Source of the DNA: Verrucomicrobia bacterium LW23 | GTDB lineage: Bacteria; Verrucomicrobiota; Verrucomicrobiia; Methylacidiphilales; UBA1321 | Reading direction: 5' to 3' | Assembly (NCBI GenBank): GCA_003054695.1 | Contig: QAZA01000050.1 | Coordinates: 310,001-374,000, forward strand | DNA: 64,000 nucleotides | Part shown: positions 19,812-62,334 of the stretch, piece after piece | Position numbering within the stretch: the first letter of the stretch is position 1 | How the letters are laid out: every line of letters begins with the position of its first letter | Made by a program: the position numbers and the translations under genes | The notes under the pieces: model-generated | Database searches by the model: none | Seen by the model: only the letters and a program-made list of their open reading frames with translations | Told to the model about the DNA's origin: nothing

Positions 19812-21044
19812 CTACGGACGCAGCGCCTCGGCGGACGGGGCAGGCACGGGCGACGGAGCGGCGCCCTCCTCCACCAGTGCGGTGGGGATAAGTGTCATTT
19901 GTGGGAAATGCGGGAGTTTGCCGAGCGCCCGGTTGACGGCAAGGCGCGCGAGGGCGCGGGCGACATCAGGAAGGTGCGTGTCAACCGAGAGCGGCGATTG
20001 CCACCCCTGTGCGGCCCTGGCATAAGCGGGGCTGCAACGGGCGAAAAGCACGGTCCAGTCCATTTCGGCCCACACCGCGTCGTAGCCGGTCACACGGATC
20101 CGCTCCAACCCCATCTCCTGCAACACGATACGTACAAGCGCCGCCTGTGCGTCGTTGAGAGCCAGTATGGTGTCCAGTTCCAGCCGCTTCACGGCATCGG
20201 CCAGCACGCGCCGTAGCTCATCCATCTCAGACTCAACAACATACGACACCCCGAAGTGCGGTGCCTCCAGAGTAAAACCCGTGCATGCAGGCGCCTCCTG
20301 CAGTGCGGCGCGGTAGCCGGCCTCCTTGCACAGCTCAAAGTTCCAGCGGCCGGCCACCTGAAAGCGCAGCATGCGCCGCCCGCCCGACGCAATGACGCGG
20401 CGGGTCAGATCAAACTGCCCCTGCATAAAGTCGGCGCGAGCGCAATCCAGGCCCTCCACCTCCATGCGGCTGCCCTGGTGTACAACCGCCACTCCCTTGC
20501 GACGAAGCTGCTGCAGCAGGTGAATCGCAGCCGGTGTCACTTCTTCTGGCTTCGCAAAAACAATAACACCCGGAGGGCTTTGAAGACACTCCTCCAGCCG
20601 CAACGCAAAATCCGCCTCGTTGCGCCAAAAAGCAGCTTGCATGCGAATGAGCGGCTCATGCCCCAGGTACCACATCAGCCACTCATCCACGGCGGTAAGG
20701 CGGTGCGCAAAACCGGACGGATACTGCTGCGCCAAAAAGCTGTGATGAAGTGGTGTAAATACCTGTACGAGAGGCTTTAACCGTTCCCGCTCCGGCGCGG
20801 GGAATGAGCGTACAACCTGCACGCCCCGGCCGTGGAGGCGCCGAACAAGGCCCTCCTTTTCCAGACGAAGAATCGCCTGATGTACAGGCGCGCGGCTGAT
20901 CTGAAAACGTTCAGCCAGGTCCCGCAGCGACGGAAGGTATTGCCCTGGAACGAGATCCCCTTCCTGAAGTGATCGAACGACATGATCGTAAACCTTCGCC
21001 AGGGAGGTTCCCTCGCGATGATTTGCGGTGCGGATTGGATTCAT
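19812..21044 (-). CDS. GntR-type HTH regulator with LacI-like sensor domain
   Basis: Residues 15-80 are a winged helix of the GntR type: VYDHVVRSLQEGDLVPGQYL, LRDLAERFQISRAPVHQAIL and the wing LEKEGLVRRLHGRGVQVV. Residues about 90-390 resemble a periplasmic-binding/LacI-type sugar sensor (DTILALNDAQAALVRIVLQE, IRVTGYDAVW). Such GntR-LacI hybrids, like AraR, respond to sugars. It is 410 residues and starts at the ATG at 21044, divergent from cassette 1 with a 164-bp intergenic region. A TGTCA lies just before its start codon on its own strand, and a TGACA-N14-TGTCA motif precedes the cassette, so it may control both. A paralogous architecture is at 59371-60522. Confidence 0.88.
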   Translation of the reverse strand: MNPIRTANHREGTSLAKVYDHVVRSLQEGDLVPGQYLPSLRDLAERFQISRAPVHQAILRLEKEGLVRRLHGRGVQVVRSFPAPERERLKPLVQVFTPLHHSFLAQQYPSGFAHRLTAVDEWLMWYLGHEPLIRMQAAFWRNEADFALRLEECLQSPPGVIVFAKPEEVTPAAIHLLQQLRRKGVAVVHQGSRMEVEGLDCARADFMQGQFDLTRRVIASGGRRMLRFQVAGRWNFELCKEAGYRAALQEAPACTGFTLEAPHFGVSYVVESEMDELRRVLADAVKRLELDTILALNDAQAALVRIVLQEMGLERIRVTGYDAVWAEMDWTVLFARCSPAYARAAQGWQSPLSVDTHLPDVARALARLAVNRALGKLPHFPQMTLIPTALVEEGAAPSPVPAPSAEALRP

Positions 21045-21172
21045 CTTTAATGACAGTTACATCAAAGCATAACTCTTTCCAATCAAATTCTCGCGAAATC
21101 GCGAAGTTCTTCTCTGTAAGGCATAACACTTCGCGAGGCTTTACTTTTTTCACAGTCCAGGCAGATTCTTGG

Positions 21173-21208: not shown

Positions 21209-21874
21209 ATGACACATGACTCCCGCCGCGCATCCCGCAAGGGCTTCAGCCTGGTCGAGCTGCTCACTGTTATCACTATCATCTCGCTGGTGACTGCCCT
21301 TAGCGTCCAGGGGCTGGCAGGTGTAGGAGGGAGCGCAGGGCGCCTGCGGCAAAGTGTCACTCAAACCGCCTCGCTGCTAAGCCAGGCGCGCATGTTGGCA
21401 ATCAGCCAGAATACCTACGTCTATGTGTTCTTTCAGCCGGATCAAGCCCGGCGGCGCGTGGACGTGATGATGGTTTACTCCCGTACCGGAATCAACCCCT
21501 GGCGGGGAGCGTCGGCGACTCCCCTGCCCGCCGCTTCCGGCGACCTTGCACCGGCGCATCTGCTTGTGACACTGGAAGATACGCAATTGCTGGAGCGCTC
21601 CGCCGCACCCACACAGGGTGACTTCGCAATTGTGCGGCCTCAGCCGGCATTTGTTATGGACCTGAGCTCCAGCTATCAGCTCTCGCACCAGAACACGGTG
21701 TACGGGAAGTCGGTCGTGTTTCGGCCCACTGGCGAGGTTTATGTGCCTCCGCTTAGCTATACCGGGGTGGTGGAGCTTGTGCTGGGGCCTGCGACGGCGG
21801 AAATACCGGAGCAGAGCGCTGCTGTTTTGCAAATTGTTGGTGCAACGGGGCAAACTCGGGTGTATCAGCGATAA
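21209..21874 (+). CDS. Verru_Chthon cassette protein D, GspH-like pseudopilin
   Basis: After a short basic leader (MTHDSRRASRKG) comes a type IV prepilin N-terminus, FSLVELLTVITIISLVTALS: Gly at -1, Phe at +1 and Glu at +5, the signals for cleavage and methylation by a prepilin peptidase. The remaining 180 residues form a C-terminal head, with ARMLAISQNTYVYVFF reminiscent of GspH/FimT proteins. At 221 residues it fits the family called Verru_Chthon cassette protein D. It is the first gene of a five-gene cassette (D-B-C-A and a fifth). The ATG at 21209 gives the shortest sensible leader. The product would sit in the inner membrane before assembly into a pseudopilus. Confidence 0.85.
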   Translation: MTHDSRRASRKGFSLVELLTVITIISLVTALSVQGLAGVGGSAGRLRQSVTQTASLLSQARMLAISQNTYVYVFFQPDQARRRVDVMMVYSRTGINPWRGASATPLPAASGDLAPAHLLVTLEDTQLLERSAAPTQGDFAIVRPQPAFVMDLSSSYQLSHQNTVYGKSVVFRPTGEVYVPPLSYTGVVELVLGPATAEIPEQSAAVLQIVGATGQTRVYQR

Positions 21875-21943
21875 GGTACGAGGCGTGTCCAACTGCTTTG
21901 CGTCCAGCTGTCACTGTCACTATTTTATCCATCGTTTTTGGCT

Positions 21944-22453
21944 ATGGTAACTGCACTATTGCCTCGCATTTCGAGTCGACCGGGATCGGCGTTCAGCCTG
22001 CTAGAGGTGGTGCTTTGTCTGGGGCTGGTTTCGTTTTGCCTGCTTGCATTGCTGGGGCTGCTGATTGCCGGGATAAGCCAGGGGCAGAATGCTGCGCAAA
22101 GCGTTCGGGCCTCGCATCTTATGTCCAAGCTTGTTGCATGGCGGGCGGCTTCGCCGGCGGGGTTGCAGGCGGCGGATGGGTCCGTGCTTGCGCTGCCGCC
22201 ACTGACGACCGCTGCGGATTCGATGTCGCCATCGTCGCCGATATATCTCGGGCAGGACGGGGAAGTTTTGCCCTCTGCGGAGGGCGCGGTGTTTCAGCTC
22301 AACTATCGGGTTGTGATGCCTGGGGCGGGCGATGTAAATACTGCAGCGGCAAGGCTTTGTAAAGTTTGGGCAGTGCTGTCGTGGCCGGGAGCGGCGCCTT
22401 TGGAGCGGGCGAAAGGTACGTACGAAATCACTTATTTTCACCCGATTCCGTGA
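21944..22453 (+). CDS. Verru_Chthon cassette protein B, GspI-like pseudopilin
   Basis: The N-terminus MVTALLPRISSRPGSA precedes FSLLEVVLCLGLVSFCLLAL, a type IV prepilin helix with Glu at +5 but Ala instead of Gly at -1. The head domain (about 120 residues) ends in YEITYFHPIP. Size (169 residues) and place in the cassette match protein B, which parallels GspI, the minor pseudopilin that nucleates the tip complex. ATG at 21944 preferred over a TTG two codons upstream. Its stop codon overlaps the next start as GTGA, so translation of the two is probably coupled. Confidence 0.85.
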   Translation: MVTALLPRISSRPGSAFSLLEVVLCLGLVSFCLLALLGLLIAGISQGQNAAQSVRASHLMSKLVAWRAASPAGLQAADGSVLALPPLTTAADSMSPSSPIYLGQDGEVLPSAEGAVFQLNYRVVMPGAGDVNTAAARLCKVWAVLSWPGAAPLERAKGTYEITYFHPIP

Positions 22454-23310
22454 CTACGTGTAAACCCTCCTCCATCCGTTGTGCCACCGCTGGTTTCAGC
22501 CTTGCGGAAGTTGTTGTAGCCGTGGCTGTTCTGTCAGTTTTGCTTGTGATGATCGGTTCGTTAGTCGGGCAGATCAGCCAGACGTGGCAGCAGGGAAAGG
22601 CGCGGGTGGACAACATGACAAAGGCGCGGGTGAGCCTCGATCTGCTGGAGCGGGATCTGCGCTCTGCGTTGCTGGCGCGGGGGCTGCCCGGATTTAAGGA
22701 CGCCGCGGGTGCGCCGGCGATGACGTTTTTCTCGGCGCAGCCTGGGCCGGTGGGGCTGGAGGCTGGGGCGCCGCAGGGTAGCACGAGGCCGCTTTCCCTG
22801 GTGGGCTACCGGGTGCAGGACAACCCGGCGGCGCCCTATGACCGGGGGTTGCAGCGGGCAACGCGAGGGTACTCTTACGAGGAGAGGGCGCCTTTTCAGC
22901 CGTCGGGTGCGGAGTTTCCCGCAACTGTTATTGCGCCTGATGACAGGTATTATCAGGTCATCGGGCCGGGCGTGCTGCGTATGGATTACCGGTTTCTCAG
23001 TAGCAGCGGGACGGTTACCCGCAAGTTTGTTTGGGATGCAGCGGTGCTGGAGAACTGTTCTTCCACTGTTACTATTTACTTGCTGGTGGCGGACGAGAGT
23101 ACCTTGCGGAAAATGGACGCTGTGCCGGGCGGGTACGCGCTGTTTTTGAGCAGGTTTGACGCCGCAGTTGCAGGCGTTTCGGATAGCGGATTTCCGCATG
23201 GTGTATGGCGGGCTGCACTGGACTCAGACGCAGCGTTCCCGGAGTTTCCCGCAGCATTGCGGCACAATATTCATGTTTATGAGCGCACACTTTCCATTCC
23301 TTTGCATTAG
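22450..23310 (+). CDS. Verru_Chthon cassette protein C, GspJ-like pseudopilin
   Basis: Start taken at the GTG at 22450, which overlaps the previous stop (GTGA). The leader VTTCKPSSIRCATAG is followed by FSLAEVVVAVAVLSVLLVMI (Gly -1, Glu +5). Right after the helix comes WQQGKARVDNMTKARVSLDL and LLERDLRSAL, very like the GspJ pattern in which a long helix leads to an ERDLR motif. The head holds about 210 more residues, to a total of 286. It matches cassette protein C in size and features. Its 3' end overlaps the start of the protein A gene by about 30 nt. Confidence 0.85.
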   Translation: MTTCKPSSIRCATAGFSLAEVVVAVAVLSVLLVMIGSLVGQISQTWQQGKARVDNMTKARVSLDLLERDLRSALLARGLPGFKDAAGAPAMTFFSAQPGPVGLEAGAPQGSTRPLSLVGYRVQDNPAAPYDRGLQRATRGYSYEERAPFQPSGAEFPATVIAPDDRYYQVIGPGVLRMDYRFLSSSGTVTRKFVWDAAVLENCSSTVTIYLLVADESTLRKMDAVPGGYALFLSRFDAAVAGVSDSGFPHGVWRAALDSDAAFPEFPAALRHNIHVYERTLSIPLH

Positions 23311-26300
23311 CCCGGCGCGTCGGCGGCGCGAGCGTAATCGGCGTGGAATCGCACTTGTGGCGATTCTTGCGGTGATTGCCGCAGCCACTTTAATGACAGT
23401 GACCTACATGATGCTGATCCGCGAGGAATCGATTACCTCGGCCAGCTACAGCCAGTCCGTGCGTACAGGGGCACTGACGGAGGCCGCGTTGCAATTGATT
23501 GGCAGCGAAATACGACAGGAGATTGCGCTGGGATCGGACGCCGTGACGCCGCTGGGCGGGTACGGCGAACCTGCACAGCTTGTGTACCTTCCTCGTAATG
23601 AATGGCTTTCGCAGCCGGCGGTGGTGGCGACGGGGGACGAGAAGGCGCGCTTGCCGAATGTGCTGCGGCGCAGCGGCCGGAGAGCGTTTTTGCAGACGAA
23701 CGCTCCCGTGGCAGCGCGATATCCTTTTGCAAGCCAGCCGTTTACGTTGGTGGCATCCGATGTATCGACAACGACTCCCTCCGCGAACAACCGGGCGATG
23801 GCCCGGGACCGCTGGAACGCGCCGGCGATGATGGCGGGAACGAATCTGTCGAGCTTTTCGGCGCCGGACTGGATTATGATGACTCGCGGGGGGCCTCTTG
23901 TGTTCAGCTCGCCCACAGCTGCCGCGGGGCTGGATGGTACGGAGGTGACGCCGCGCCCGGCAGATCCTTCGCCGGCAAATACCACTTTAGTGACAGGGCG
24001 TTTTGCCTTTACGATGTATCGGACCGACTATGGGCTGGACGTTGGTGCGGTGGGCGCACCCGCGAGCGGGCTGCCCGCAGCGGTTGCCGCGCGGCGTCGG
24101 ACGCTGCCCTTTGCGAATCTCGACAGAGTGCCTGGCTTTAGTGCGTCCCTGCAGCAAAAGTTGCTGGATTTTCGCAATACTTCAACAGCAGCAACGGTTT
24201 ACAATGCGGCAGCGCCTGCTGATCCCGGCACGTTTTTTGGCTGGGCTACGCGTACCAGTCACGGGTTTTTGCGGCCGGCGGCGGGGGATCAGCAGTTGTT
24301 AACGCGGCGGGAGCTCTTGCAGTTTCTGGAGAGCAACGGGGTGGACCTGGCGACGTCGTCGCTTCCGCAAATGCTCACCGTGTTTACGCGGGAGGTGAAC
24401 TCGCCCAGCTATGTGCCGGCAACGGGTCGGGCGCGTATCCAGGCGGGGTTCCCTTATGCGGGACAGGATGATGCATTGAACCCGGCGTTTGCGCGCCTCG
24501 TCTACCCGGTAACAGTGACAGTGCCAGTGGATGGCACCCTTTCCGCTCCCCTGCAGATTCGTGCGGGCGATCCCCTGGTGATGCGGAGGTTTGCGTTGAG
24601 CCGGCTGGCGTGGCTGACGCGGCGCGGGCCGAGTGCGGACAACGGGGGCGATGCGAACGGGACGGCGGCCAATATTCGCCGCTATTTTGGGTTGGAGTGG
24701 GACGCCTCGTCGCATCGCTGGGTGTATGATCATGGCGATCCCGATAAGATCCTGACGTTGAACGAGTTGCAAGCAAAGATGGTCGCCGGGCAGGAGCTTC
24801 GCGAGCCTGACTTTTTTGAGCTGTTGAAGGCTACGCTGAACTGTGGATCGCTGGCGATGGAGGGCAATACGTCTACTTCGCAGCCGAATGTTAAGGATGA
24901 GAGCACCAATCTGGACCTGCACGTGCTGAAGATCGGCGCGAACATGATTGATCAGGCGGACGCGGACGGGTACCCGACGGTGATTGCGTACAGCAATGGG
25001 GGCGGATTTCCCGAAGTATATGGCGTGGAGGATCTTCCGTACATAAACAAGGTATACCATCTGTTCTTGCGCACGCCGGCCAATCTCACGCGGCTTAACG
25101 CGTATTTGTTGCCGGAGATTTTTCGGCCGCATTATGCAGCGTCGTCTGCGCCGCCGGTGGATGCGCCGACGCGGTTTCGAGTGGTCGTGCAGGAGGGCTC
25201 CACGCTGTCAGTAACCTCGCAATATACGGTTAACCCGGCGGTGCGGTTTGTGCCGGACGTGATTAACCGGCGCACGACGGCGACGTCGCCGGTGGGGACG
25301 ATGGTGTGGGGCGGGGGGACGTCGCCAGCCAAAACGTTTACGCAGGCGGACCAGGAGGCGAGCGCGGTGGAGTTTGAGGTGACGAGCGCGGTTCCGTTTA
25401 CCAGCCCTACGATGCTGACGGGGGATAACTCCTCCTCCCCCAATGTGCAAAATCGTATAACCAACAGTATTTACAGCCATGTGTTTGGCACAGGGTCGGA
25501 GAACTGGACGGGGCCGAACGGGGAGGTGGTGGAAAAGGTGGGGCTTCCGTTCAACAGCTGGAACGTGTTGTACCTGCACTACTTTACAATCCCTGCCAAC
25601 ACAACGGCGGTGCACTATACGCGGTACACCAACCCGGTTATCAGCCTGGCGTTGCAGTACCAGGATGGCGCGCGGTGGCAAACGTGCAGCGAGTGGAAGG
25701 TGCTTTCTCGCATTAATCAGTCCAGCGATTATGGCGACCTCAATGGGGCGGTGCCGCCGGATATCCACTTTTTCCGCAATCGCTATCATTTTATGAAGCT
25801 GGACCCGCGCACGGAGCGGCTGGGCACGGATATGCTGTGGAACGGCACGTTTAGCAGCGACAATCGTACGGTGGAGAACCGGTCGGTGGGGCACCCGGGG
25901 TTTGGCGTTAACGGGTACTTCGGGTTCCTCTATCGCTCGTGGTTTGCGACGAACGGGATTCCCTGGACGCCGAACTATTACTTTCCGCTGCAACGCTTTA
26001 AGTGGGGTACGGGCATTGACGCCTATGCGCGGTGGACCTGGCTGCAGCGCAATACGGATTCCTCCGCCGACGCCAACTCGTGCTACTACCGCGACCCCGA
26101 CGGGACGGTGCGCCCGGGCGATGGCTACTACGCCCCGCAGCACGCGGGCACGGAGGCGAACAAAGTGGGCGCGCCGCTTGCGGATACGGCCAATTTTATA
26201 AGCCGTCCCGTGATGCTGAACCGGCCGTTTGAGAGCGTGGCCGAGCTGGGCTACGTTTACCGCGATTTACCGTGGCGCTCGCTCGATTTTTTTAGCGCGC

Positions 26301-26875
26301 GCAGCGCGGACGCCGCCCTGCTGGATGTCTTTTCTGTCGACGAATCGCCGCCTGTGCGGGCCGGTGTGGTGAGTCTGAACACGCCGTACGTGCAGGTGCT
26401 GCAATCGCTGCTACGCGTGAGGGGCGGTGCGTTGCCGTTGCAGGAGGTTGGGGTGACAAGTCCCGCCACGCCGGCGGGCGGGCTGGCGTTGCAAGATGCT
26501 GAGGCGGACGCGTTTGCGCAGATGTTTCTAGCCAAAACACAGCAGCTTCCGCTCTCCGTGCGCAGCCAGCTGGTAACGCGGCTGGCGGAGGACGCGGATA
26601 TGGCCAACTGTTATGCGCAGGTGAACTCGCGACGCATCAAGGCCAGGCGGGAGAGTTTTGTGCGGGCTTTGGGCAGTGATGCCACGGCGGTGCGCACGTG
26701 GAACCTGATGGTGGACGTGGTGGTGCAAACAGGCCGATACCCAGTAGGCAAACCGGTGTCCGACCTGGGCGCCGACTTTCGCGTAGAAGGGGAACGGCGC
26801 GTGTGGTGGCATTTGGCAATCGACCGATATACGGGTAAGATTGTGGACCAGTTTATGGAGCCTGTCTATGAGTAA
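23279..26875 (+). CDS. Verru_Chthon cassette protein A, very large GspK-like pseudopilin
   Basis: This 1198-residue protein starts at ATG 23279 (an ATG 6 nt earlier is also possible), overlapping the protein C gene. The N-terminus has a basic cluster RRRRERNRRG then IALVAILAVIAAATLMTVTY. Gly sits at -1 but position +5 is Ala, not Glu, as in GspK, the largest minor pseudopilin that caps the tip. The remaining 1100 residues are one long extracytoplasmic region, much longer than GspK (about 300). It includes a helix-hairpin-like piece (ALPFANLDRVPGFSASLQQK shape, near residue 290) as GspK has. It matches cassette protein A in length. No enzymatic motif is evident. Confidence 0.85.
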   Translation: MSAHFPFLCISPARRRRERNRRGIALVAILAVIAAATLMTVTYMMLIREESITSASYSQSVRTGALTEAALQLIGSEIRQEIALGSDAVTPLGGYGEPAQLVYLPRNEWLSQPAVVATGDEKARLPNVLRRSGRRAFLQTNAPVAARYPFASQPFTLVASDVSTTTPSANNRAMARDRWNAPAMMAGTNLSSFSAPDWIMMTRGGPLVFSSPTAAAGLDGTEVTPRPADPSPANTTLVTGRFAFTMYRTDYGLDVGAVGAPASGLPAAVAARRRTLPFANLDRVPGFSASLQQKLLDFRNTSTAATVYNAAAPADPGTFFGWATRTSHGFLRPAAGDQQLLTRRELLQFLESNGVDLATSSLPQMLTVFTREVNSPSYVPATGRARIQAGFPYAGQDDALNPAFARLVYPVTVTVPVDGTLSAPLQIRAGDPLVMRRFALSRLAWLTRRGPSADNGGDANGTAANIRRYFGLEWDASSHRWVYDHGDPDKILTLNELQAKMVAGQELREPDFFELLKATLNCGSLAMEGNTSTSQPNVKDESTNLDLHVLKIGANMIDQADADGYPTVIAYSNGGGFPEVYGVEDLPYINKVYHLFLRTPANLTRLNAYLLPEIFRPHYAASSAPPVDAPTRFRVVVQEGSTLSVTSQYTVNPAVRFVPDVINRRTTATSPVGTMVWGGGTSPAKTFTQADQEASAVEFEVTSAVPFTSPTMLTGDNSSSPNVQNRITNSIYSHVFGTGSENWTGPNGEVVEKVGLPFNSWNVLYLHYFTIPANTTAVHYTRYTNPVISLALQYQDGARWQTCSEWKVLSRINQSSDYGDLNGAVPPDIHFFRNRYHFMKLDPRTERLGTDMLWNGTFSSDNRTVENRSVGHPGFGVNGYFGFLYRSWFATNGIPWTPNYYFPLQRFKWGTGIDAYARWTWLQRNTDSSADANSCYYRDPDGTVRPGDGYYAPQHAGTEANKVGAPLADTANFISRPVMLNRPFESVAELGYVYRDLPWRSLDFFSARSADAALLDVFSVDESPPVRAGVVSLNTPYVQVLQSLLRVRGGALPLQEVGVTSPATPAGGLALQDAEADAFAQMFLAKTQQLPLSVRSQLVTRLAEDADMANCYAQVNSRRIKARRESFVRALGSDATAVRTWNLMVDVVVQTGRYPVGKPVSDLGADFRVEGERRVWWHLAIDRYTGKIVDQFMEPVYE

Positions 26876-26942
26876 GAATAATCTCACCGCTAACAGTGAC
26901 AGTTACAATAACAGCTTAAGCGGCGGAGAAGCTCTCTTTTCT

Positions 26943-27953
26943 ATGCCAGTATCCCCGTGCAACTGGAACGTAATGTCCCCGATAGCGCCTGGACCGCTCT
27001 TGGCGATTGCGTGCGCTATTGCCATGGCCCTTGCCTTCGCGCTTGCCCCGTCAGCGGCGCAGGCACAAGATGCTCAGCCTCAGCCTCCGCAGGTAACGCA
27101 AAAGCCCCCGGCGACGCCTTCCGCTTCCGTGCCGGCACCCGCTTCCGCACCGGCATCGCCTGCGGCAATCCCCGCGCTACCGCCACCGCCGGCGGGGCTT
27201 GTGCCGTTGCGGCCGCAGGCACCCGTGGCGTGGGAATGCAGCGCGTGGATGCCGCCCACGGCGGAAAAGATCGGCGCGCCGGACCTCGGGCCGGGCACTC
27301 TCCAGCCGCGGAGGGAGGGGCGAACCTTTGCGGCAGCGGCTACCACACCCGCCTCCCCCGGGGGTACCCCCTCGGAGTCCCCCGCAGCGCCTGCAGCGGA
27401 GCCCTTTGTACAGGCGCTGCCCGTGAAGGTGCAGGGCTGGTTCGACGGGCGAACGACGCGGCTGCGGCTGCAGTGGACCTCCGGCAAGACGACGGAGAAG
27501 TGGAAAGTGCCAGGGGCATCGGGGGTGACGATGATTCTGGAACAAAGCCCGGAGGACGGGACGATATCGGTGGCCGACAGCCGCTTTCACGAGGCGGACG
27601 TGCAGAAGTTTGGCAGCACTCCGTTTGCAGACCTGTTCTGGATGCAACCGTCGCACTATGTGGGGCCGCGGTACTTTCAGGGGCAGCCCAGCTATTTCTA
27701 TCGCGCGGCCGGGCTGCAGCGCACCAGCCATGCGTGGGATACGCTGGTCTCCGCGGCGATGAGCGTATGGATCGATCCCGCAAGCCGGTTACCTAGGGCG
27801 GCGACTGACGAGAACTCGTTGTGGCTGTACACGTTCGGCTCGGCGCCGGCGGCGGGATCACTGGTGCTTTCGCCCCTGTTTGCCGCTGCGCAGCAGCAGG
27901 CGGAGAGGCGGTATCAGAAGCTTATCGGGCGCTTCAAGGCAGTGAAGCCGTAG
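26943..27953 (+). CDS. Fifth gene of cassette 1, secreted protein of unknown function
   Basis: I start it at ATG 26943, giving 336 residues and a signal peptide (SPIAPGPLLAIACAIAMALA, cleavage near AQA-Q). An ATG at 26868 overlaps the previous stop (ATGAGTAA) and would add 25 residues; translational coupling makes that possible too. After a Pro/Ala linker (residues 50-100) there is a folded region with many beta-type strands, ending in a helical tail (AAAQQQAERRYQKLIGRFKA). It is not visibly related to the fifth gene of cassette 2. The stretch MSVWIDPASRLPRA loosely recalls LolA/LolB-like lipoprotein-sorting proteins, but this is weak. A conspicuous palindrome starts directly after its stop codon. 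Confidence 0.7.
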   Translation: MPVSPCNWNVMSPIAPGPLLAIACAIAMALAFALAPSAAQAQDAQPQPPQVTQKPPATPSASVPAPASAPASPAAIPALPPPPAGLVPLRPQAPVAWECSAWMPPTAEKIGAPDLGPGTLQPRREGRTFAAAATTPASPGGTPSESPAAPAAEPFVQALPVKVQGWFDGRTTRLRLQWTSGKTTEKWKVPGASGVTMILEQSPEDGTISVADSRFHEADVQKFGSTPFADLFWMQPSHYVGPRYFQGQPSYFYRAAGLQRTSHAWDTLVSAAMSVWIDPASRLPRAATDENSLWLYTFGSAPAAGSLVLSPLFAAAQQQAERRYQKLIGRFKAVKP

Positions 27954-31297: not shown

Positions 31298-33499
31298 ATG
31301 GTGGCCGAATCATTCCGCAGCCTAATCCTTGGAATCACGCTCATTGCCGTGGTGTCCGCGCTTATCCTCGCTCGCGACTGGAACAACCGCACATCCGTCA
31401 AGATGGCGCGCCTGCAGGCTGAGGAACGCGCCCGCAAGGCTGCCACTCCGCGCGATAACACACTGCCCGCCAACACTTTAGACACCAACGCAACAGCGTC
31501 GTCACTCCCACGCCACGCGCCGGATAAAGTCTGGCGCATCGCCATCTTTCAGCATGGCTCCATGGCGGTGCTCGACGAGATCGCCAACGGCATGGTCGAC
31601 GAGCTCACCAGCGCCGGCTTTCTGAAGGAAGAACAGCGCAAGCAGGTCCTCAGCACCGGCTACGCCGAAGGCCCGCGCTGCACCGTGCGCCGCCTTAACG
31701 CGCAAATGGACGCCAATACCACGCAAGCCATTGCGGCGCAACTTACTAGCGGCGACTACGACCTTGTCCTCACCATCAGCACCCTTTCGCTGCAGGCCAT
31801 GCATCGCGCCAACAGCAAGGGCGAGGTGATCCAAGTGTTTGCAGGCGTGGCAGATCCGTGGGGTGCACTGCCCGAGCTCAGGCGCGGCGAGCCGCTGCGC
31901 CACCCCCCTCACCTCGTCGGCATCGGCAGCATGCAACCGGTGGACCAGGGCCTGCGCCTGGCCAAAAAGCTGCGTCCAGAGCTGGCGAAAGTCGGCGTCC
32001 CCTACAACACCTCCGAGGCCAACGCCGTGGCGCAAATCGCCATCGCCCGCGCCACGTGTAAGGAGTTGGGCATCACACTGTTAGAAGCAAACGCGGAAGC
32101 CCCGACAGCCGTGCAGGACGCCGTGCTTTCCCTGCTAAGCCGCGGGGCGGAGGCAATCCTCATCCCAGGCGACATCACCGCGCTTTCCGCAGCCGATGTC
32201 ATCGTCCGCTTTTCGCAACAAGCTGGCGTTCCAGTGTTTACGTTAATTCCGCCGAATGTGAAACGCGGGGCGCTTTTTGATCTTGGCGCCGACTACTTCC
32301 GCGTCGGCCAGCTTGGCGCCGGCCTTGCCGTGGAGATTATGAACGGCCGGGACCCCGCCGCAATCCCGATCGAAAACGTTATGCCGGAGCAACTTATGAT
32401 TAATAAGAAAGCTCTGGCCGACCTGAAGGAGCCCTGGACCATCCCCGACGACATCCTGGAAAAAGCCGCGCTGGTGATGGACGAAACCGGCAAAATTGTC
32501 CGCGATAATCTGGCCAATCGCCCCAAAGCCGTCTCTCTGCCCGCCAAACCGGCCGCCCCGGCGCGGAAGCCGGAGCCGGGGCGCACTTATAAAGTGGGCC
32601 TCCTCTACTTTGGCCCGGAACCAGGAGTAGAGAACTGCATGCGCGGCCTTATGGATGAGCTTAAGCGCCAGGGGTTTACGGAGGGCGTGAACCTGGAGAT
32701 GCGCCGCTTGCACGCCGCCGGCGAGATCTCCACCATTCCGGCGCTGATCAGCCAGCTGGATAACTCGGACGTGGACGTGATTATGCCGCTCAGTACGCCG
32801 TGTGTCTCGGCCGCCTGCAGTCTGGTCAGGAATAAACCTGTTGTCTTCAGTTATTGCTACGATCCGATCGCTGCCGGCGCCGGCAAAAGCTTTACCGACA
32901 AGCTGGAGCGCGTTACCGGCATCGGTAGCTTTCCGCCGCTGGAGGATACGGTAACCGTTCTGCAACAACTGGTTCCGGATCTCAAGACAGTCGGCACGCT
33001 CTACAATCCCGGCGAGGCTAACTCCGTCAAGGCGGTGGCTGTGGCCAGGGAAATCATGCAAAAGCGCGGCATCACGCTCCTGGAGACGCCGGCCAGCAAC
33101 ACGGCCGAGGTGCATCAGGCCGCCCAGGCCCTTGCCGGCAAAAGCCCGCAGGTGGTGTGGATTACCGGCGACAACACGGCCCAGCAAGCTTTTCCCGCCA
33201 TTATGCGTGTAATGACGGATAGCCGTATCCCCGTGGTGGTCAACGACATCGAAGAGCTTCCCCACGGGCCGGTGGCCGGTGTGGGCGTGGGCTTCTATGA
33301 GTCCGGAACCGCCGGCGCCCAGGTGCTGGCGAGGGTGCTGCTGGGCGAGAAAACGGCCGATATCCCGATCACCAACGTCAGCCGTAAGCTCGTCAGCATC
33401 AACGACAAAGCCGCGGCGGAGCTGGGCATCGCGATCCCGGAGTCGCTGCGCAGGGAGGCCGCCGCCACGCAATTGCCCGTCCCTGCCGGTCAGAAATAG
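31298..33499 (+). CDS. Membrane-anchored tandem ABC_sub_bind protein (TrpX-like, duplicated)
   Basis: The 733-residue protein has an N-terminal hydrophobic helix (residues 7-25) with no lipobox, then two similar domains of the ABC_sub_bind type (TrpX/YtxM-like amino-acid binding). Domain 1 begins near residue 78 (WRIAIFQHGSMAVLDEIANG) and domain 2 near 430 (YKVGLLYFGPEPGVENCMRG). Each shows VGTLYNPGEANSV or KVGVPYNTSEANAV followed by a conserved GITLLE strand, proof of an internal duplication. No permease or ATPase gene adjoins it. It may therefore be a scavenging or sensing protein, or serve a transporter encoded elsewhere. Confidence 0.85.
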   Translation: MVAESFRSLILGITLIAVVSALILARDWNNRTSVKMARLQAEERARKAATPRDNTLPANTLDTNATASSLPRHAPDKVWRIAIFQHGSMAVLDEIANGMVDELTSAGFLKEEQRKQVLSTGYAEGPRCTVRRLNAQMDANTTQAIAAQLTSGDYDLVLTISTLSLQAMHRANSKGEVIQVFAGVADPWGALPELRRGEPLRHPPHLVGIGSMQPVDQGLRLAKKLRPELAKVGVPYNTSEANAVAQIAIARATCKELGITLLEANAEAPTAVQDAVLSLLSRGAEAILIPGDITALSAADVIVRFSQQAGVPVFTLIPPNVKRGALFDLGADYFRVGQLGAGLAVEIMNGRDPAAIPIENVMPEQLMINKKALADLKEPWTIPDDILEKAALVMDETGKIVRDNLANRPKAVSLPAKPAAPARKPEPGRTYKVGLLYFGPEPGVENCMRGLMDELKRQGFTEGVNLEMRRLHAAGEISTIPALISQLDNSDVDVIMPLSTPCVSAACSLVRNKPVVFSYCYDPIAAGAGKSFTDKLERVTGIGSFPPLEDTVTVLQQLVPDLKTVGTLYNPGEANSVKAVAVAREIMQKRGITLLETPASNTAEVHQAAQALAGKSPQVVWITGDNTAQQAFPAIMRVMTDSRIPVVVNDIEELPHGPVAGVGVGFYESGTAGAQVLARVLLGEKTADIPITNVSRKLVSINDKAAAELGIAIPESLRREAAATQLPVPAGQK

Positions 33500-36551: not shown

Positions 36552-37109
36552 TTGAAGCACCTCACTCACATCTTCCAACGCTGTACGGCACGGCCCCGCG
36601 CTCGGGTCGCGCGGGGCGTCTTCCCCGCGCTCACGCGGCATCGTGGCGCGGCATTGTCGTCGCGTTCCGCCTTCAGCATGCTGGAGGTAGCGCTGGCCCT
36701 GGGTCTTTTCGCATTCGCTATCATTTCCATCCTGGGCCTGCTGGCGGTTACGATGAATCTTGACCAGGACTCCGCCAACGACACCACTGTAACAAGGATG
36801 TCGGAGGAGACCGGCGCCTGGCTGCGCAGCCAGCCGTTTGCTACCAGCCACACGGCGGCGGCCTACGCGCCCACGGACACCACGCCGGATTTTTACTACG
36901 ACGCGGCGGGCCGCATGGCACTGACCTCTACCGGCGCCCCGGCCACCACAGCGCCAGCGGACGCGTACTTTAGCTGCACTGTGACCCGCCGGGCCACGCC
37001 CTCCAACGCCATGGATGTGCTGGTGATGACCTACTCCTGGCCGCTGAAAGCGCAGGAGGCCCATCGGAAGACGCGCCGGATGCACATCAGCATCTCCTCC
37101 GGCTACTAA
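36552..37109 (+). CDS. Verru_Chthon cassette protein B (cassette 2), GspI-like pseudopilin
   Basis: A basic leader of about 39 residues precedes SAFSMLEVALALGLFAFAII, a prepilin-type helix with Glu at +5 and Ala rather than Gly at -1, exactly as in protein B of cassette 1. The head domain includes VLVMTYSWPLKAQEAHRKTR. Total 185 residues. TTG at 36552 is the only start available before an in-frame stop. Unlike cassette 1 no protein D gene precedes it; instead there is a CBM9-like remnant. CTTGTATCC about 13 nt upstream may be a -10 region. Confidence 0.8.
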   Translation: MKHLTHIFQRCTARPRARVARGVFPALTRHRGAALSSRSAFSMLEVALALGLFAFAIISILGLLAVTMNLDQDSANDTTVTRMSEETGAWLRSQPFATSHTAAAYAPTDTTPDFYYDAAGRMALTSTGAPATTAPADAYFSCTVTRRATPSNAMDVLVMTYSWPLKAQEAHRKTRRMHISISSGY

Positions 37110-37127
37110 CCACCAGCACGCACCGCC

Positions 37128-38150
37128 ATGACTACCCCCGCGCAACTGATATTGCCAATCCGCCCCGGCACCCGCAGCCGCCGCCGCGCCTTTACGCTGG
37201 TGGAGCTGATGGTGAGCCTGGTGATGATGACGCTGCTGCTGACGCTGTTCTTCTCCATGGTGGTGGAGATAAGCAAAGTGTGGCAGCAGGCGCAGGCGCG
37301 CATGGAGCCGCGCGTCAGCGGCCGCACCGTGCTGGACATCCTGGGCCGCGAGCTGGAGATGGCCGCGCTGCCCGAGGACAGGCTGATGCTCTATACCAGC
37401 ACCACCGCCACGCCCGTCGGCACGGCGATGAACCTGCAGATGCTGGTGAACCCGCCGCAGCTGACGGCGGCGACGTTCCTGAATCCGCACGCCGTGTTCT
37501 GGCAGGCGCCGGCCGTCTCGGCGCAGGAGGGCAACATGGCGGAGCTGGGCTACTTTATCCGCTGGGATACCACGACAAAGCCGGGCAATCCGCGCGCCAC
37601 ACTCTACCGCATGTGCATTAAGCCGGGCGATGCGCAGTACCGCATCTACTCCGACCCGACAGCCTGGCTCAGCGACTCGATTGTGGATGCTGCCGCACCG
37701 GCCATTGATGCGGCCGCGGCGGATAACATCTACAAGGGCTGGATGGCCGACAATGTCATCGGCCTGTGGGTGCGCTGCCTGGATCCGCTGGGCAACCCGA
37801 TTACCCGCACCGCGCTGGCCACCACTTACGGGCCGTATGTGTATGACTCGCGCCTGGGCTACAGCTACACCTCCGGCACCAAGACGATGGTGTGCAGCGG
37901 GCGCACAGTCAGCACTTCCAACTACCAGATTCTCGCCACGCTGCCCCCTTCCATGGAGGTCGCGATTGTGATTCTGGACGCGGCGGCCGCCGACCGGCTG
38001 ACGGCCAAGCCCACCTACCCCGCATCAGCAACCCCAACGCGCGCCTCGTTCTGGAAGGATATCGACGACTTTGTAGCCGCGCTGCCGCCTCAGGTTCGCA
38101 AGGGCGCACGCATCTACTCCACCCGGGTGACGCTGAAAAGCGGTCAGTAA
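37128..38150 (+). CDS. Verru_Chthon cassette protein C (cassette 2), GspJ-like pseudopilin
   Basis: RSRRRA-FTLVELMVSLVMMTLLLTL is a prepilin-type N-terminus with Glu at +5 and Ala at -1. It is followed by WQQAQARMEPRVSGRTVLDI and LGRELEMAALPE, the same layout as GspJ and protein C of cassette 1. The protein has 340 residues, longer than cassette 1 C (286), with the extra length in the extracytoplasmic head. It starts 18 nt after protein B. Both C proteins share the VWQQxxAR motif after the helix, supporting common descent. Confidence 0.83.
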   Translation: MTTPAQLILPIRPGTRSRRRAFTLVELMVSLVMMTLLLTLFFSMVVEISKVWQQAQARMEPRVSGRTVLDILGRELEMAALPEDRLMLYTSTTATPVGTAMNLQMLVNPPQLTAATFLNPHAVFWQAPAVSAQEGNMAELGYFIRWDTTTKPGNPRATLYRMCIKPGDAQYRIYSDPTAWLSDSIVDAAAPAIDAAAADNIYKGWMADNVIGLWVRCLDPLGNPITRTALATTYGPYVYDSRLGYSYTSGTKTMVCSGRTVSTSNYQILATLPPSMEVAIVILDAAAADRLTAKPTYPASATPTRASFWKDIDDFVAALPPQVRKGARIYSTRVTLKSGQ

Positions 38151-38201
38151 GCCGTCCAGGCCATCGCAAAGCCAATATGTAGTGAAGAAGGAGCCCCTCC
38201 C

Positions 38202-41200
38202 ATGCCCATGCCGAAGCTAATGCCCTTATTAACCCGCAGGATTCACGCCGCCGCTCACCTCCGTCGCGCCGGCTCGGCCCTTATCCTTACCCTGGGCGCA
38301 CTGGCGCTGGTGACGATGATTGTGCTGGCCTACGCCTCGCTGGTGCGCGTGGAGCGTGTCTCCGCCAACAGCGCGCTGGAAGCCCGCCGCGCCCGGCAAC
38401 TGTGCGGCCTGGCGGCGGACGAAGCGATGATCAAGCTGCGCGACAACATCCCGCTGGACAAGCACTGGGCCGCCGGCCCCGGCCGCCTGTGCATCCATGC
38501 GCCGGGCCTCACCCCCAAGCCGTGGCGCTATGTGGATTTGTCCTCCGGCAACGCCGCCACCTCCACCACCGGCAAGGTGGCGCTTAATGAGAACCTCGTC
38601 CTCACCACACGCCCCATCCTCTCCCCCAACGCGGAGCACCCGACGCCCGACCCGATGGAGGTGGCGTGGATCAACGTGCTGGAGGACGGCACCCTTTCCA
38701 CCGCCGCCGACTACGCCACGCGGCTTTCCGCCACCAACAGGATTGTCGGCCGCTATGCCTACTGGACGGACATTGAGACGGGCAAAGCCAACATCAACAC
38801 CGCCGGCCGCGCCAAAACCACCTACTCAATGGCCGAGCCCCGGGTAGGCGACGTGCAAAACCTTACCGGCCACCCCAGCCGGGTGGACCTGAGCAAGCTG
38901 GACGCGGCCGGCGGCGCGATCACGCCCGCGGAAAGCAAAGCCACGTACGACCACACCGTCAGCAGCTACTGGCTCGACGAGGAGGTGACGGCCTCCGACC
39001 CCGCACCGGCCAAACGCCTGCCGCCCAACGGGATGAAGCGCTTTAACTCGCTTCGCGAGTGGGGAAGCATCCCCGGCATCTCGGCGGAGAAAGTGGAGGC
39101 CAACAAGTTCAACATCACCACCCTGGCCCGCGCGCCGGAGCTGAATCCATGGGGCTACAACAAGTGGTGGTGGCAAGCCGCCCCCGCGCATCGCGTCGGC
39201 ACCGTAGGCACCGGTTCCGCCACCACGCGGCCCAATGTGATGAACGGCCAGGGCCTTCCCCTCTATCCCGGGCCGGAGATTACAGTAACGGACACTTACA
39301 CTTACACAGGCAATAATTGCGATACCCGCTACTACGTGTACCCGGCGTTTCTGGGGAGATCCAATACCACGGTCTCCACCACGTTTAGCCAAAACATGCA
39401 GTGGTTTGGCAGTAACGTGAATTATTACGCCTATACGGGCTCGCCCAACAAGAATCTGAACTTTCAGCAGTACATGGTTAACTTTATGAAGCTGATGAAC
39501 CGGAAGGACTGGCCGGGGATGCCGCAGAGGAGCTTTGTCGACAAGTTTGGCAGCGACGCCTGCGAGGACCTGGCGGTCAACCTCATGTACATGTTTGACA
39601 GCTCGGTCGGCGGCGGCGGATCGGTGCCGAACATCTCCGCCAGTGCGGCCAACGCGCAGACGCAGGCTTACGCCAGCTCCACCTACACGTACACGCGCCC
39701 CGACGGCTCGACGCGCCGCCTGATAGGCTCCGGCAGCACGGCGATGATCAACGAGGTGGCCATGCAGTTTACGCCCAACAAGGGGGGCGTGGCCACACTG
39801 CCCGCCACCACCCCGGCCAACCCCACTAACCCGGCGATGTCGGGCGCCAACCCGGGGTTTTGTCAGGCGGTGGCTTCGGCTACACCGGCCACCAACGTGC
39901 GGATTATCCCCATGATCGAGATGTTTCGCCCGCCGGGAATGCCTGGGCGCAACCGGGCCTACATTGGCGGCAACAACAGCACGCTTGGCCTCTCCAACAT
40001 CGAGGTCATTGCCACCGGCACCTACAACGGCGCGCCGGTCACCTACTCCGGGCCGGGCTACATCTGGGGGTTGCCCGATGACAGGGTGGATGATATCGAC
40101 ACGGGCGCCCAGTCTGTCTCGATGTTGCGTTACTGGAACCCCGGCAACTGGGTCGCCTCCAACGGCAGCCGCTATTTCATCCCCAACGCCACGCCCACCA
40201 GTTACTCGTTTCCAGCCTTTTACATCGGCCCGTTTGACTACAACACAACGGCCAGCATTACCGTCAAGTGCAACGCCGTGTACAACCAGTTTAACCGCTG
40301 GACGCGCTTCTACCCCATCCAGATTGTCCCGATGACCGAGCGCGTGGATAAATCGCCCGACAACCCGACCGCGTCGGAAAAGATTGTGATTACCGCCGAG
40401 GTCTTCGTCGACAACATCCTGAAGGAGAGCGTCTACGCCTCGCGCGAAGTCAACGACCCGCGGGTGTTCCGCTACCCGGCGGACTGGCAAGTGAGCACCG
40501 CCCCGCAGGGCCACACCCTCGGAGCGCCCAACACCGCCGTGCAGACGCCGTACCTGGATCCACGCACCGGCGTCCTTGGCGACTCCAGCAAGCTGGCCAT
40601 GCCCAACGTGTACCCCACCACGCTGGGCTACGCCAATACCAGCGATCCCCGGTGCGACCAGTCCGCCTCGCACATCGCCAGCTTCCCCGGCATCGGCTGG
40701 CTCTCCCTGGCCTGCCTGCCGGACGACGCGGGCAAAACGCCGGGCATCCCCTGGCGCACCCTCAACTTTGGCCCCGCCACCGACGCCGGCAACCTGCCGG
40801 ACTGGCTTCTGCTCGACATCTTTGCGATGGCGTACGAGCAAACCTACCTGAGCCAGACGCAAGGGCAGATCAACCCCAACGCGCGCATCTACCCCTTCAA
40901 CTTCAACCGCCTGGCGCCGCTGAAAGCGTTGCTCATCCCCGCCGAAGCCAACCCCTCCACCGACGCGAACGTGATTGCGCAGGATATAGCCAGCCACACG
41001 GGCATCAACGGCGGCCCGTGCTCGCAGTTGCCCGACGACATGTTTGTTTACATTGGCCAGATTTGCCAGGTAACCAGCATGCAGGGCAGCGCAACCTCGC
41101 AGTGGGGCAAGGAGGCGCTCATTCGCGACGTAGCCGGGCTGCTCACCACCAAGTGCAGCGACTTCAAGGTGCACATCATTGCGCAAACCCTCAACAAGGC

Positions 41201-41486
41201 GGGCGAGCCCACCTCCACCCAGCGCATGTCGGCCATCATCTCGCGGGTTACGGACGTGGGCCCCGACGGCGTACCCGGCACCGCCGACGACTTTGCCGGG
41301 CCCGACCGCATCCCCGGCACGGCCGACGACATCAGCTTCAAGGCCGCCGATGGCACCACCATCACCAGCATGTCCTACAACGGCAACGACAAACCGCTGG
41401 AAGAGTACGCCGGCCGCCCCCCCTTCCGTTTCGAAATTACACGTGTAGAGTGGCTCACGCGCTACGCGCCGTACGAGAATAACTGA
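38202..41486 (+). CDS. Verru_Chthon cassette protein A (cassette 2), large GspK-like pseudopilin
   Basis: 1094 residues with AAGGAG 8 nt before the ATG. The hydrophobic N-terminus AG-SALILTLGALALVTMIVL has Gly at -1 and no Glu at +5, as in GspK. It continues into the helix VRVERVSANSALEARRARQL, typical of GspK/PilX. The long extracytoplasmic part includes Gly/Thr/Asn-rich stretches and, near residue 1020, two similar units DGVPGTADD and DRIPGTADD that resemble calcium-binding loops. Shares overall design with the cassette 1 A protein, though the bodies have diverged. Confidence 0.83.
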   Translation: MPMPKLMPLLTRRIHAAAHLRRAGSALILTLGALALVTMIVLAYASLVRVERVSANSALEARRARQLCGLAADEAMIKLRDNIPLDKHWAAGPGRLCIHAPGLTPKPWRYVDLSSGNAATSTTGKVALNENLVLTTRPILSPNAEHPTPDPMEVAWINVLEDGTLSTAADYATRLSATNRIVGRYAYWTDIETGKANINTAGRAKTTYSMAEPRVGDVQNLTGHPSRVDLSKLDAAGGAITPAESKATYDHTVSSYWLDEEVTASDPAPAKRLPPNGMKRFNSLREWGSIPGISAEKVEANKFNITTLARAPELNPWGYNKWWWQAAPAHRVGTVGTGSATTRPNVMNGQGLPLYPGPEITVTDTYTYTGNNCDTRYYVYPAFLGRSNTTVSTTFSQNMQWFGSNVNYYAYTGSPNKNLNFQQYMVNFMKLMNRKDWPGMPQRSFVDKFGSDACEDLAVNLMYMFDSSVGGGGSVPNISASAANAQTQAYASSTYTYTRPDGSTRRLIGSGSTAMINEVAMQFTPNKGGVATLPATTPANPTNPAMSGANPGFCQAVASATPATNVRIIPMIEMFRPPGMPGRNRAYIGGNNSTLGLSNIEVIATGTYNGAPVTYSGPGYIWGLPDDRVDDIDTGAQSVSMLRYWNPGNWVASNGSRYFIPNATPTSYSFPAFYIGPFDYNTTASITVKCNAVYNQFNRWTRFYPIQIVPMTERVDKSPDNPTASEKIVITAEVFVDNILKESVYASREVNDPRVFRYPADWQVSTAPQGHTLGAPNTAVQTPYLDPRTGVLGDSSKLAMPNVYPTTLGYANTSDPRCDQSASHIASFPGIGWLSLACLPDDAGKTPGIPWRTLNFGPATDAGNLPDWLLLDIFAMAYEQTYLSQTQGQINPNARIYPFNFNRLAPLKALLIPAEANPSTDANVIAQDIASHTGINGGPCSQLPDDMFVYIGQICQVTSMQGSATSQWGKEALIRDVAGLLTTKCSDFKVHIIAQTLNKAGEPTSTQRMSAIISRVTDVGPDGVPGTADDFAGPDRIPGTADDISFKAADGTTITSMSYNGNDKPLEEYAGRPPFRFEITRVEWLTRYAPYENN

Positions 41487-41536
41487 CGCGCCGTCCGCCT
41501 CCCCTGCCTCCATCGCTTCCCCCCCCCACCTACGCA

Positions 41537-42442
41537 ATGAAGCTCCACCCCACCCGCCTGCTTGCCTGCCTGACCTGCGCCGTGTGGCTGCTTGCCGCCA
41601 CCGATATAGCCCACGCGCAAGCGCCTGCCGACGAGGACTCCGCCGAAGTCAGGGCCAAACCCAGGCCCGCCCGCACCAGCAACGCCCGCGCCAAACGCGG
41701 CCCCAACAACGACCCGGGCCAGAAGATCGCCCCCATCCCGCCCGCCGAGCTTCTACCGTTGCTTCCCTCCGCCCCGGACGCCGAGTGGAAGCTCACCGCC
41801 TCCCGCGCGTACAATGAGCTGACCGAAGCGCCGCGCATCATGACCTTTGCCAAGCGCGACTTCAAGCGCACGCCGCCGCCCCCCGCCAACCCAGCGCCCG
41901 GCGCCCCCGCACCGCAGCCGCAAACGCTCACCCTTACCGTGCTGGACATCGCCGACGACCCCGAGCGCATCGGCGACCTGACAGAGCTGGAGAAATCCGC
42001 CGCCAGCCCCCCCGCGCCCGCCACCGACCAACTCGCCTTCTACAAGCTGGGCAAGCTAAGCGTGCGCGAAACCGGCCCGGCCCCCGGCGCCGCCCTGGCG
42101 CCCGGTGTCACCCACGGCAGGCGGCTGATTGTTGCCGCACTGCGCAAGCGCTTCCTCATCGTGCTCAACCTCACCAACACGTCAAAGGAAGAGGCGCACG
42201 CCTGGCTTAACCGGGTCGATCTCGCCAAACTCACCGCCGCCGCCGCCACCCCCCGCCAGCGCGAAGGCGTCATCCCCGGCATGGAAGATATCTTCACCCT
42301 CCACAGCGTCGACGAGCTCAACCCCAAAGGCAACCAGACCACGCAAATCTCGCGAGTCAGCCCCGAAGAAATGGCCCGCCGCGAAGCCAGCGGCCGCGCG
42401 CAGTTTCAGAAGAAAGACCCCGCCCCGCCCGACGTGCCGTAG
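41537..42442 (+). CDS. Fifth gene of cassette 2, secreted protein of unknown function
   Basis: A signal peptide (TRLLACLTCAVWLLAATDIA, cleavage near AHA-Q) leads into a basic Pro/Ala-rich stretch, then an ordered region with LTASRAYNELTEAPRIMTFA and GRRLIVAALRKRFLIVLNLT. Total 301 residues. I do not recognise it. It occupies the same place as the fifth gene of cassette 1 but shows no clear similarity, so the slot may hold cargo or an accessory specific to each cassette. Spacing from protein A is 50 bp. Confidence 0.72.
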   Translation: MKLHPTRLLACLTCAVWLLAATDIAHAQAPADEDSAEVRAKPRPARTSNARAKRGPNNDPGQKIAPIPPAELLPLLPSAPDAEWKLTASRAYNELTEAPRIMTFAKRDFKRTPPPPANPAPGAPAPQPQTLTLTVLDIADDPERIGDLTELEKSAASPPAPATDQLAFYKLGKLSVRETGPAPGAALAPGVTHGRRLIVAALRKRFLIVLNLTNTSKEEAHAWLNRVDLAKLTAAAATPRQREGVIPGMEDIFTLHSVDELNPKGNQTTQISRVSPEEMARREASGRAQFQKKDPAPPDVP

Positions 42443-45381: not shown

Positions 45382-45615
45382 CGCAGCTGTGTGTACAGGC
45401 GTATTGTGCCTGTGCATCTCGGTCGTTCGGCGCGTTTCCTCCGGAGATCCTCCTCCCCGCCGTGTTTCGGCAAGCCCCGCCTCCCCTTCTTTCTGTACAA
45501 CCTGTTGTGCAGAATGTTGTACTGCACGCAACAGCTACGCATGTTTCGATGCCTCCCGGCCATTCGTGTCTTCGTTCATTCATTGCGAAATACCCACTAC
45601 TCTTGGACCCCCATT

Positions 45616-62025: not shown

Positions 62026-62334
62026 TGGGTAAGTAGTTGCACTTCATCGACAAAGAAGCCAAAAGCTCCTTGCCACTGTTCCTGTTTTGAATTTCCTAAT
62101 GATAATTCAAACGGAATTATAAAGCAGTGCTTTCTAAAAAGTAATGCACCCCCCATGCCACATGCAAGCAAAGAAATCGCATCGCTTGAAAATATTTCGC
62201 CCCGATGAACCTGCTGCCGCAAGAGTCCCCTGTATAGCTTGCAACCACAAGCCTTTGCATGCCAACGCCGCCATGGCGACTTTCTTGGCAATGCACCACG
62301 TCTAGCATTGCGAATCCAAGTTTCTCCGCCTACG

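Follow-up and report, generated by a model that had tools for sequence, protein, structure and literature searches.

A divergent relative of the Verru_Chthon cassettes resembles a type II secretion tip complex with a predicted giant GspK-like subunit

Results

Four prepilin-headed genes and an exported fifth partner

The cassette described here lies in a 64,000-nucleotide stretch of the genome of Verrucomicrobia bacterium LW23 (positions 310001-374000 of contig C50; host genome 6.6 Mb, 56 contigs), which we call the window and by which we number the features below. Four successive open reading frames (ORFs) on the + strand, spanning 21209-26875, begin with prepilin-type heads and stand in the order D-B-C-A, as an earlier note on this DNA had described. 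D (21209-21874, 221 amino acids), B (21944-22453, 169 amino acids) and C (22450-23310, 286 amino acids) carry a glutamate at position +5 of the mature head (Glu+5). The very large A (23273-26875, 1200 amino acids) has no Glu+5. The stop/start overlaps reported by the same note hold for the pairs B/C (4 nt) and C/A, whereas a gap of 69 nt lies between D and B. The four-gene unit it proposed stands as far as it goes and is incomplete: a fifth gene, E (26868-27953, + strand; the true start may be the ATG at 26973), was overlooked and encodes an exported protein with a proline-rich linker.

The note had named this locus a Verru_Chthon cassette. The Verru_Chthon families are indeed the best NCBIfam matches of all four proteins, and the arrangement that characterizes them, four adjacent genes A-D with prepilin heads on B, C and D, is found here. 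Yet the alignments are confined to the head region and every curated cut-off is missed: D scores 31.3 bits against 70 (TIGR02596), B 22.9 against 51.4 (TIGR02598), C 40.3 against 256.5 (TIGR02599) and A 9.8 against 332.3 (TIGR02600). The searches that the note had suggested returned matches to the TIGR families, GspH and GspJ, all of them below cut-off. We therefore rule out the canonical cassette as the identity of this locus and, on sequence, regard it as a divergent sister class of Verru_Chthon.

Scans of the paralogues for minor pseudopilins of the type II secretion system (T2SS) gave consistent results. Fifteen of 16 D paralogues match GspH and 11 of 17 C paralogues match GspJ, while B paralogues match PilV (11/15) and GspI (8/15). 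C also carries the GspJ-like motif 'TWQQ...LLERDLR', much as the note had read it. Paralogue alignments show Glu+5 in every D and B and in nearly every C (one Asp, at locus L093); all 18 aligned A proteins lack it. Prepilin heads, Glu+5 in H, I and J but not K, and the gene order H-I-J-K are all found in the cassette. We conclude that all three smaller proteins are minor pseudopilins, D being similar to GspH, B to GspI and C to GspJ.

A predicted GspK fold with a long insertion

The AlphaFold2 model of A (predicted template modelling score 0.81, with 51 sequences in the alignment) comprises an N-terminal helix of 64 residues, a strand spanning residues 240-250 and, toward the C-terminus, a sheet formed by residues 1142-1198. 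Structure comparison with VIA-align placed this model with GspK/XcpX (9a1f_T, Z 13.4; 3ci0_K, Z 13.1; 5vtm_X, Z 12.8; 6utu_C, Z 12.6), and the match to 3ci0_K covers 242 of 280 residues, spread over model residues 54-1200. The best unrelated match (Z 6.3) is to a beta-sandwich that lies within the insertion, at about residues 584-854. Foldseek alone ranks 3ci0_K low (E 2.5), and the match becomes clear only by VIA-align and profile-profile comparison.

The profile comparisons extend beyond the head. The head of A matches Verrucomicrobial GspK with a probability of 94%, and the C-terminal region, with the head removed, matches the GspK profile at 93% with a score of 50; the best of 60 shuffled controls scored about 22 in this region and 24 when the whole body was compared. 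The GspK C-terminal pattern 'PFxSVxEL...GxVNLN...VLxAL' is present in A. The first A region (GxxAYxxYDExGxLDxN) did not rise above shuffled controls when compared with the GspK body. Natural A-like ORFs of 702 and 793 amino acids from two genomes align with the model at 19-355 and 945-1158 and nowhere else, and these insert-less forms delimit the insertion; they were seen at G013:C1:698693-700723 and G288:C23:376742-379033. As modeled, A is a GspK fold, that of a pseudopilin containing an inserted helical domain, into which about 600 further residues are inserted. The suggestion of a GspH-I-J-K-like tip set with a giant K-like subunit thus held up in both predicted structure and profile, and we consider the identity of the cassette as a tip complex to be well supported.

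Many giant tip subunits and one complete secretion operon

Searches of the host genome with TIGR02596, TIGR02599 and TIGR02600, together with head scans of 50 genomic regions, revealed at least 36 giant A subunits in three classes: 17 canonical (above cut-off), at least 11 of group I, to which the window cassette belongs, and at least 8 of group II. One lone A and E pair on contig C25 was overlooked by TIGR02600 and recovered through E, so the A counts are lower bounds. At L274:5689-10718, a group-I A missed by TIGR02600 is directly followed by E and then by a LacI-type regulator, without D, B or C. Incomplete copies also occur as A alone (L089, L091), as D-B-C without A (L097) and as D alone (L099, L128). 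Gene order distinguishes the classes: the 11 readable canonical cassettes run B-C-A-D (7), A-B-C-D (2), D-B-C-A (1) or B-C-D-A (1), whereas groups I and II retain D-B-C-A.

A second cassette in the window, at 36654-42442 (+ strand), belongs to group II and comprises B (36654-37109), C (37128-38150), A (38202-41486) and an exported protein, E2 (41537-42442); no D was found upstream of its B. E2 has no Pfam match, and its homologues follow group-II A genes at three further loci (L084, L085, L086). We considered E2 as a relative of E and found no support for this beyond the signal region. Group II A matches group I A strongly (97% in profile comparison). The canonical A body, by contrast, scores 23 against the GspK body with a control of 24, and canonical A matches GspK by its head only; we therefore claim the GspK assignment for group I and, through its match to group I, for group II.

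Neither GspD, GspE, GspF nor GspG is encoded within the window, and GspC-G, GspL and GspM are likewise not encoded with the cassette. The description of a tip set "without the rest of the machine" is accordingly right for the locus and wrong for the genome, which carries a complete T2SS operon on contig C17 (secretin, GspE, GspF, GspG and H, I, J and K), the only one found. Its K is the sole GspK homologue found in the genome and itself matches XcpX only weakly in the PDB (E 0.011). We also found five secretin genes, PilB-type ATPases and a PilC-like gene on contig C9, and a PilT-like, retraction-type ATPase in the window (62239-63468, 35 kb from the cassette; T2SSE domain, E 1.5e-44). The count of at least 36 giant tip subunits against one complete T2SS suggests that many exchangeable tips share a single machine.

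Gene E is a constant neighbor of A

A hidden Markov model built from 20 genes downstream of A, with the window E excluded, recovers the window E at E 2e-19. Matches to this family occur in 33 loci, always as the first same-strand gene downstream of A; at one locus (L152:14209-16225) two consecutive copies of E follow a single A. In the host genome all nine strong E matches lie directly behind a group-I A, and 9 of the 11 group-I A genes have an E. A Pfam scan of 25 members gave no family below E 0.02. The AlphaFold2 model of E has a mean predicted local distance difference test (pLDDT) score of 72, with the domain mostly above 80. Members of the LolA/LolB/RseB/LppX superfamily fill the top of its VIA-align list (Z 8-12), and Foldseek returned VioE, LolA3 and MucB at a probability of about 0.9 and E of about 0.01. 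From its model, the exported E is predicted to contain a half-beta-barrel of the LolA/LolB/RseB/LppX type. It differs from that superfamily in having no Pfam match, a proline-rich linker after its signal peptide and a giant GspK as constant neighbor.

The order D-B-C-A recurs across the Verrucomicrobiota

A search for related loci with the window A alone found no relative, and an alignment of the paralogues was needed. With the group-I A alignment, the search of public genomes yielded 96 loci, of which 80 were kept, all from Verrucomicrobiota by title (Chthoniobacterales or 'Spartobacteria', Methylacidiphilales, Verrucomicrobiales and others). Among the loci with a scored A, 38 read D-B-C-A and the remainder are truncated or have missing members; no complete cassette in any other order was found among the related loci of this class. 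The recurrence of D-B-C-A in 38 related loci argues that the arrangement is not due to chance. Across 141 genomes of the class, group-I A is present in 21, and GspK occurs in 18 of these compared with 45 of the 120 others (Fisher p 6e-5, ignoring phylogeny).

Sugar-sensing regulators and carbohydrate context

Divergent from the cassette, on the - strand at 19812-21044, is a GntR-type regulator (Pfam GntR, E 1.8e-17) with a LacI-like, sugar-sensing C-terminal part (Peripla_BP_1, a weak match at E 0.19), which probably controls the cassette. There are 33 TCGCGA sites in the window, and their sole tight cluster consists of three palindromic sites at 21085-21142, between the regulator and D. From the site count and the inverted repeats, this cluster is a possible operator. 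A promoter scan of the region gave 3 hits where 1.9 were expected, no more than chance.

The hint of polysaccharide use that the earlier note drew from its neighbors gained statistical support. Five of the 11 group-I cassettes known at the time of the test have a Peripla_BP_3 regulator no more than 2 kb away, where 0.35 were expected from the 54 Peripla_BP_3 proteins of the host genome, and none of 20000 random draws reached this number. By the same measure, the proximity was seen for 5 of 20 canonical cassettes and 1 of 9 in group II. In relatives, regulators of the LacI/Peripla_BP and GntR families are the most frequent immediate upstream neighbors of group-I cassettes (the scan covered 51 of 72 neighbors and excluded those of extreme length, short or long), and many glycoside hydrolases lie downstream. 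One locus (L097:3421-10121, - strand) has D-B-C followed, in the place of A, by an exported 1341-amino-acid protein with a C-terminal CBM9, and a Peripla_BP_3 regulator adjoins it; here a tip set is apparently paired with a carbohydrate-binding exoprotein.

Other features of the window

Elsewhere in the window, judged by eye, an operon at 45391-52234 resembles a heavy-metal efflux system (outer-membrane factor, adaptor with a metal-binding head, and pump of the resistance-nodulation-division type), and a 733-amino-acid protein at 31298-33499 seems to have two tandem copies of a periplasmic substrate-binding domain of the ABC_sub_bind kind. A - strand gene at 52274-53974 encodes a protein in which PEGA repeats are combined with a domain of the sulfatase-modifying-factor (FGE) kind (Pfam 5e-18 and 8e-14).

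Discussion

The cassette agrees well with the GspH-I-J-K set of the T2SS (XcpUVWX; PDB 3CI0, 5VTM) in its gene order, in the presence of Glu+5 in three subunits and not the fourth, in the predicted GspK fold of A and in the C-terminal 'VNLN' region. The four minor pseudopilins of the T2SS are thought to prime the pseudopilus and occupy its tip (PMC7541494, PMC6211770), and the outermost subunit, the one in contact with substrates, has been proposed to be GspK (PMC7541494). There are also differences. A is about four times larger than its T2SS counterpart (1200 compared with about 320 amino acids), the cassette has no linked GspC-G, L or M, its proteins fall far below the cut-offs of the sequence models, and a single genome holds at least 36 giant paralogues. 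The cassette further adds a fifth exported gene of predicted LolA fold and a linkage to sugar-sensing regulators. With the Verru_Chthon families (TIGR02596/02598/02599/02600) it shares homologous heads on all four proteins, the same four components and a host genome that also encodes 17 canonical A proteins; it differs in matching by heads only, below cut-off, and in its order, canonical cassettes being mostly B-C-A-D. These families are known from annotation only, under the name 'Verru_Chthon cassette', and we found no paper on them in the literature searched.

On balance, we think that D-B-C-A-E is probably a sugar-regulated, exchangeable tip module for a pseudopilus of the T2SS kind. A carbohydrate signal, sensed by the adjacent GntR/LacI-type regulator, would turn the cassette on. 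Prepilin peptidase would then trim D, B, C and A, which would self-assemble with A at the apex, and this complex would prime a pseudopilus for which the shared T2SS provides GspG and platform. At the apex, the insertion of A may bind whichever cargo or polysaccharide surface its tip is specialized for, and E may partner A, as carrier or as cargo, either in the periplasm or at the tip. The linkage to regulators points to a separate tip for each carbohydrate condition. The steps that we infer are how the cassette docks to the shared T2SS, what the tip binds and what E does. A machine has to be borrowed, since the cassette lacks genes for a major pseudopilin, an ATPase, a platform and a secretin; the single T2SS is the most likely lender, and type IV pili (T4P) are its main rival.

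Several results weigh against this reading. The cassette has no physical linkage to the T2SS operon, the window and contig C17 being separate. None of the Gsp curated cut-offs is reached (GspH 28.2 against 80 bits by D, GspJ 20.4 against 64.85 by C, and GspI not reached by B), the window A has no match to Pfam T2SSK, and a search of PDB sequences with the A profile gave chance matches only and no GspK. In the paralogue scans, PilV is no worse a match for B than GspI is. The co-occurrence of group-I A with GspK ignores phylogeny, and three genomes with group-I A (G293, G296, G297) have no GspK match, which may reflect incompleteness or divergence. Lastly, with T4P-type ATPases in the genome, the docking partner could be a T4P.

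This last point leads to the alternative that fares best, although we consider it unlikely: the cassette would form the priming and adhesin complex at the tip of a T4P, with D-B-C-A as analogues of FimU-PilV-PilW-PilX, the insertion of A in the role of PilY1, and sugar-regulated adhesive pili as the product. The preference of B paralogues for PilV fits this view, as do weak PilX_N matches by two A paralogues (best E 0.12), the PilB-type, PilC-like and PilT-like genes of the host, and the absence of Glu5 from PilX as well (PMC7541494). It accounts poorly for the GspK C-terminal region of A and the match of A to GspK over nearly the whole fold, or for the match of C paralogues to GspJ. Moreover, the predicted fold of E, the gene behind A, does not resemble PilY1, and no PilY1-like gene was seen beside the cassette, though no search was aimed at PilY1.

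The fold of E raises a different alternative, which seems to us quite improbable, that no filament is built and that the four proteins form a complex anchored in the inner membrane and work with E in the periplasm, for example in sorting lipids or lipoproteins. The LolA/LolB/RseB/LppX superfamily comprises carriers and sensors of lipids and lipoproteins, and the cassette encodes no major pseudopilin. A common fold does not prove a function, however. Prepilin heads, the Glu+5 pattern and the fixed H-I-J-K order suit the priming of a filament, and T2SS GspK is present in most cassette genomes. Expansion of the paralogues by drift, with little individual function, would suit the very many copies and the several incomplete ones, but is very improbable given 27 residue columns invariant across 51 A proteins, whose identity to the window A is just 27-35%, an order fixed over several orders of the phylum, and the conserved linkage to E and to regulators.

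Exchangeable pilus tips, as in the T2SS module that we favor, have precedents in M. xanthus, where three minor-pilin/PilY1 clusters run on one type IVa pilus machine (PMC7541494) and the Kil (Tad) pilus has four interchangeable tips (PMC12075869). There, as here, several minor-pilin modules with a large variable part are served by few assembly machines. The M. xanthus systems have three or four modules compared with at least 36 giant K subunits here, where the large part is GspK itself, as modeled, rather than PilY1 or a TadG-like protein, and where modules are linked to carbohydrate regulators. In the literature searched we found no precedent for this scale or for a giant GspK.

For a divergent branch akin to the Verru_Chthon families, our analysis gives a structural assignment, as relatives of GspH-I-J-K with A as a predicted giant GspK, and adds the exported E as a new fifth component. 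How T2SS recognize their cargo and what the tip contributes are long-standing questions. If the proposed role is correct, dozens of natural tip variants in one genome, of which many have a regulator and an exported partner of their own, would make tip specificity readable from comparative genomics and testable by tip swapping. More tentatively still, one T2SS may be retargeted by dozens of transcriptionally selected, interchangeable giant tips, each with its own carbohydrate signal, a different insertion in GspK and a dedicated partner of LolA fold, which would constitute a general mode of substrate-specific secretion in the Verrucomicrobiota.

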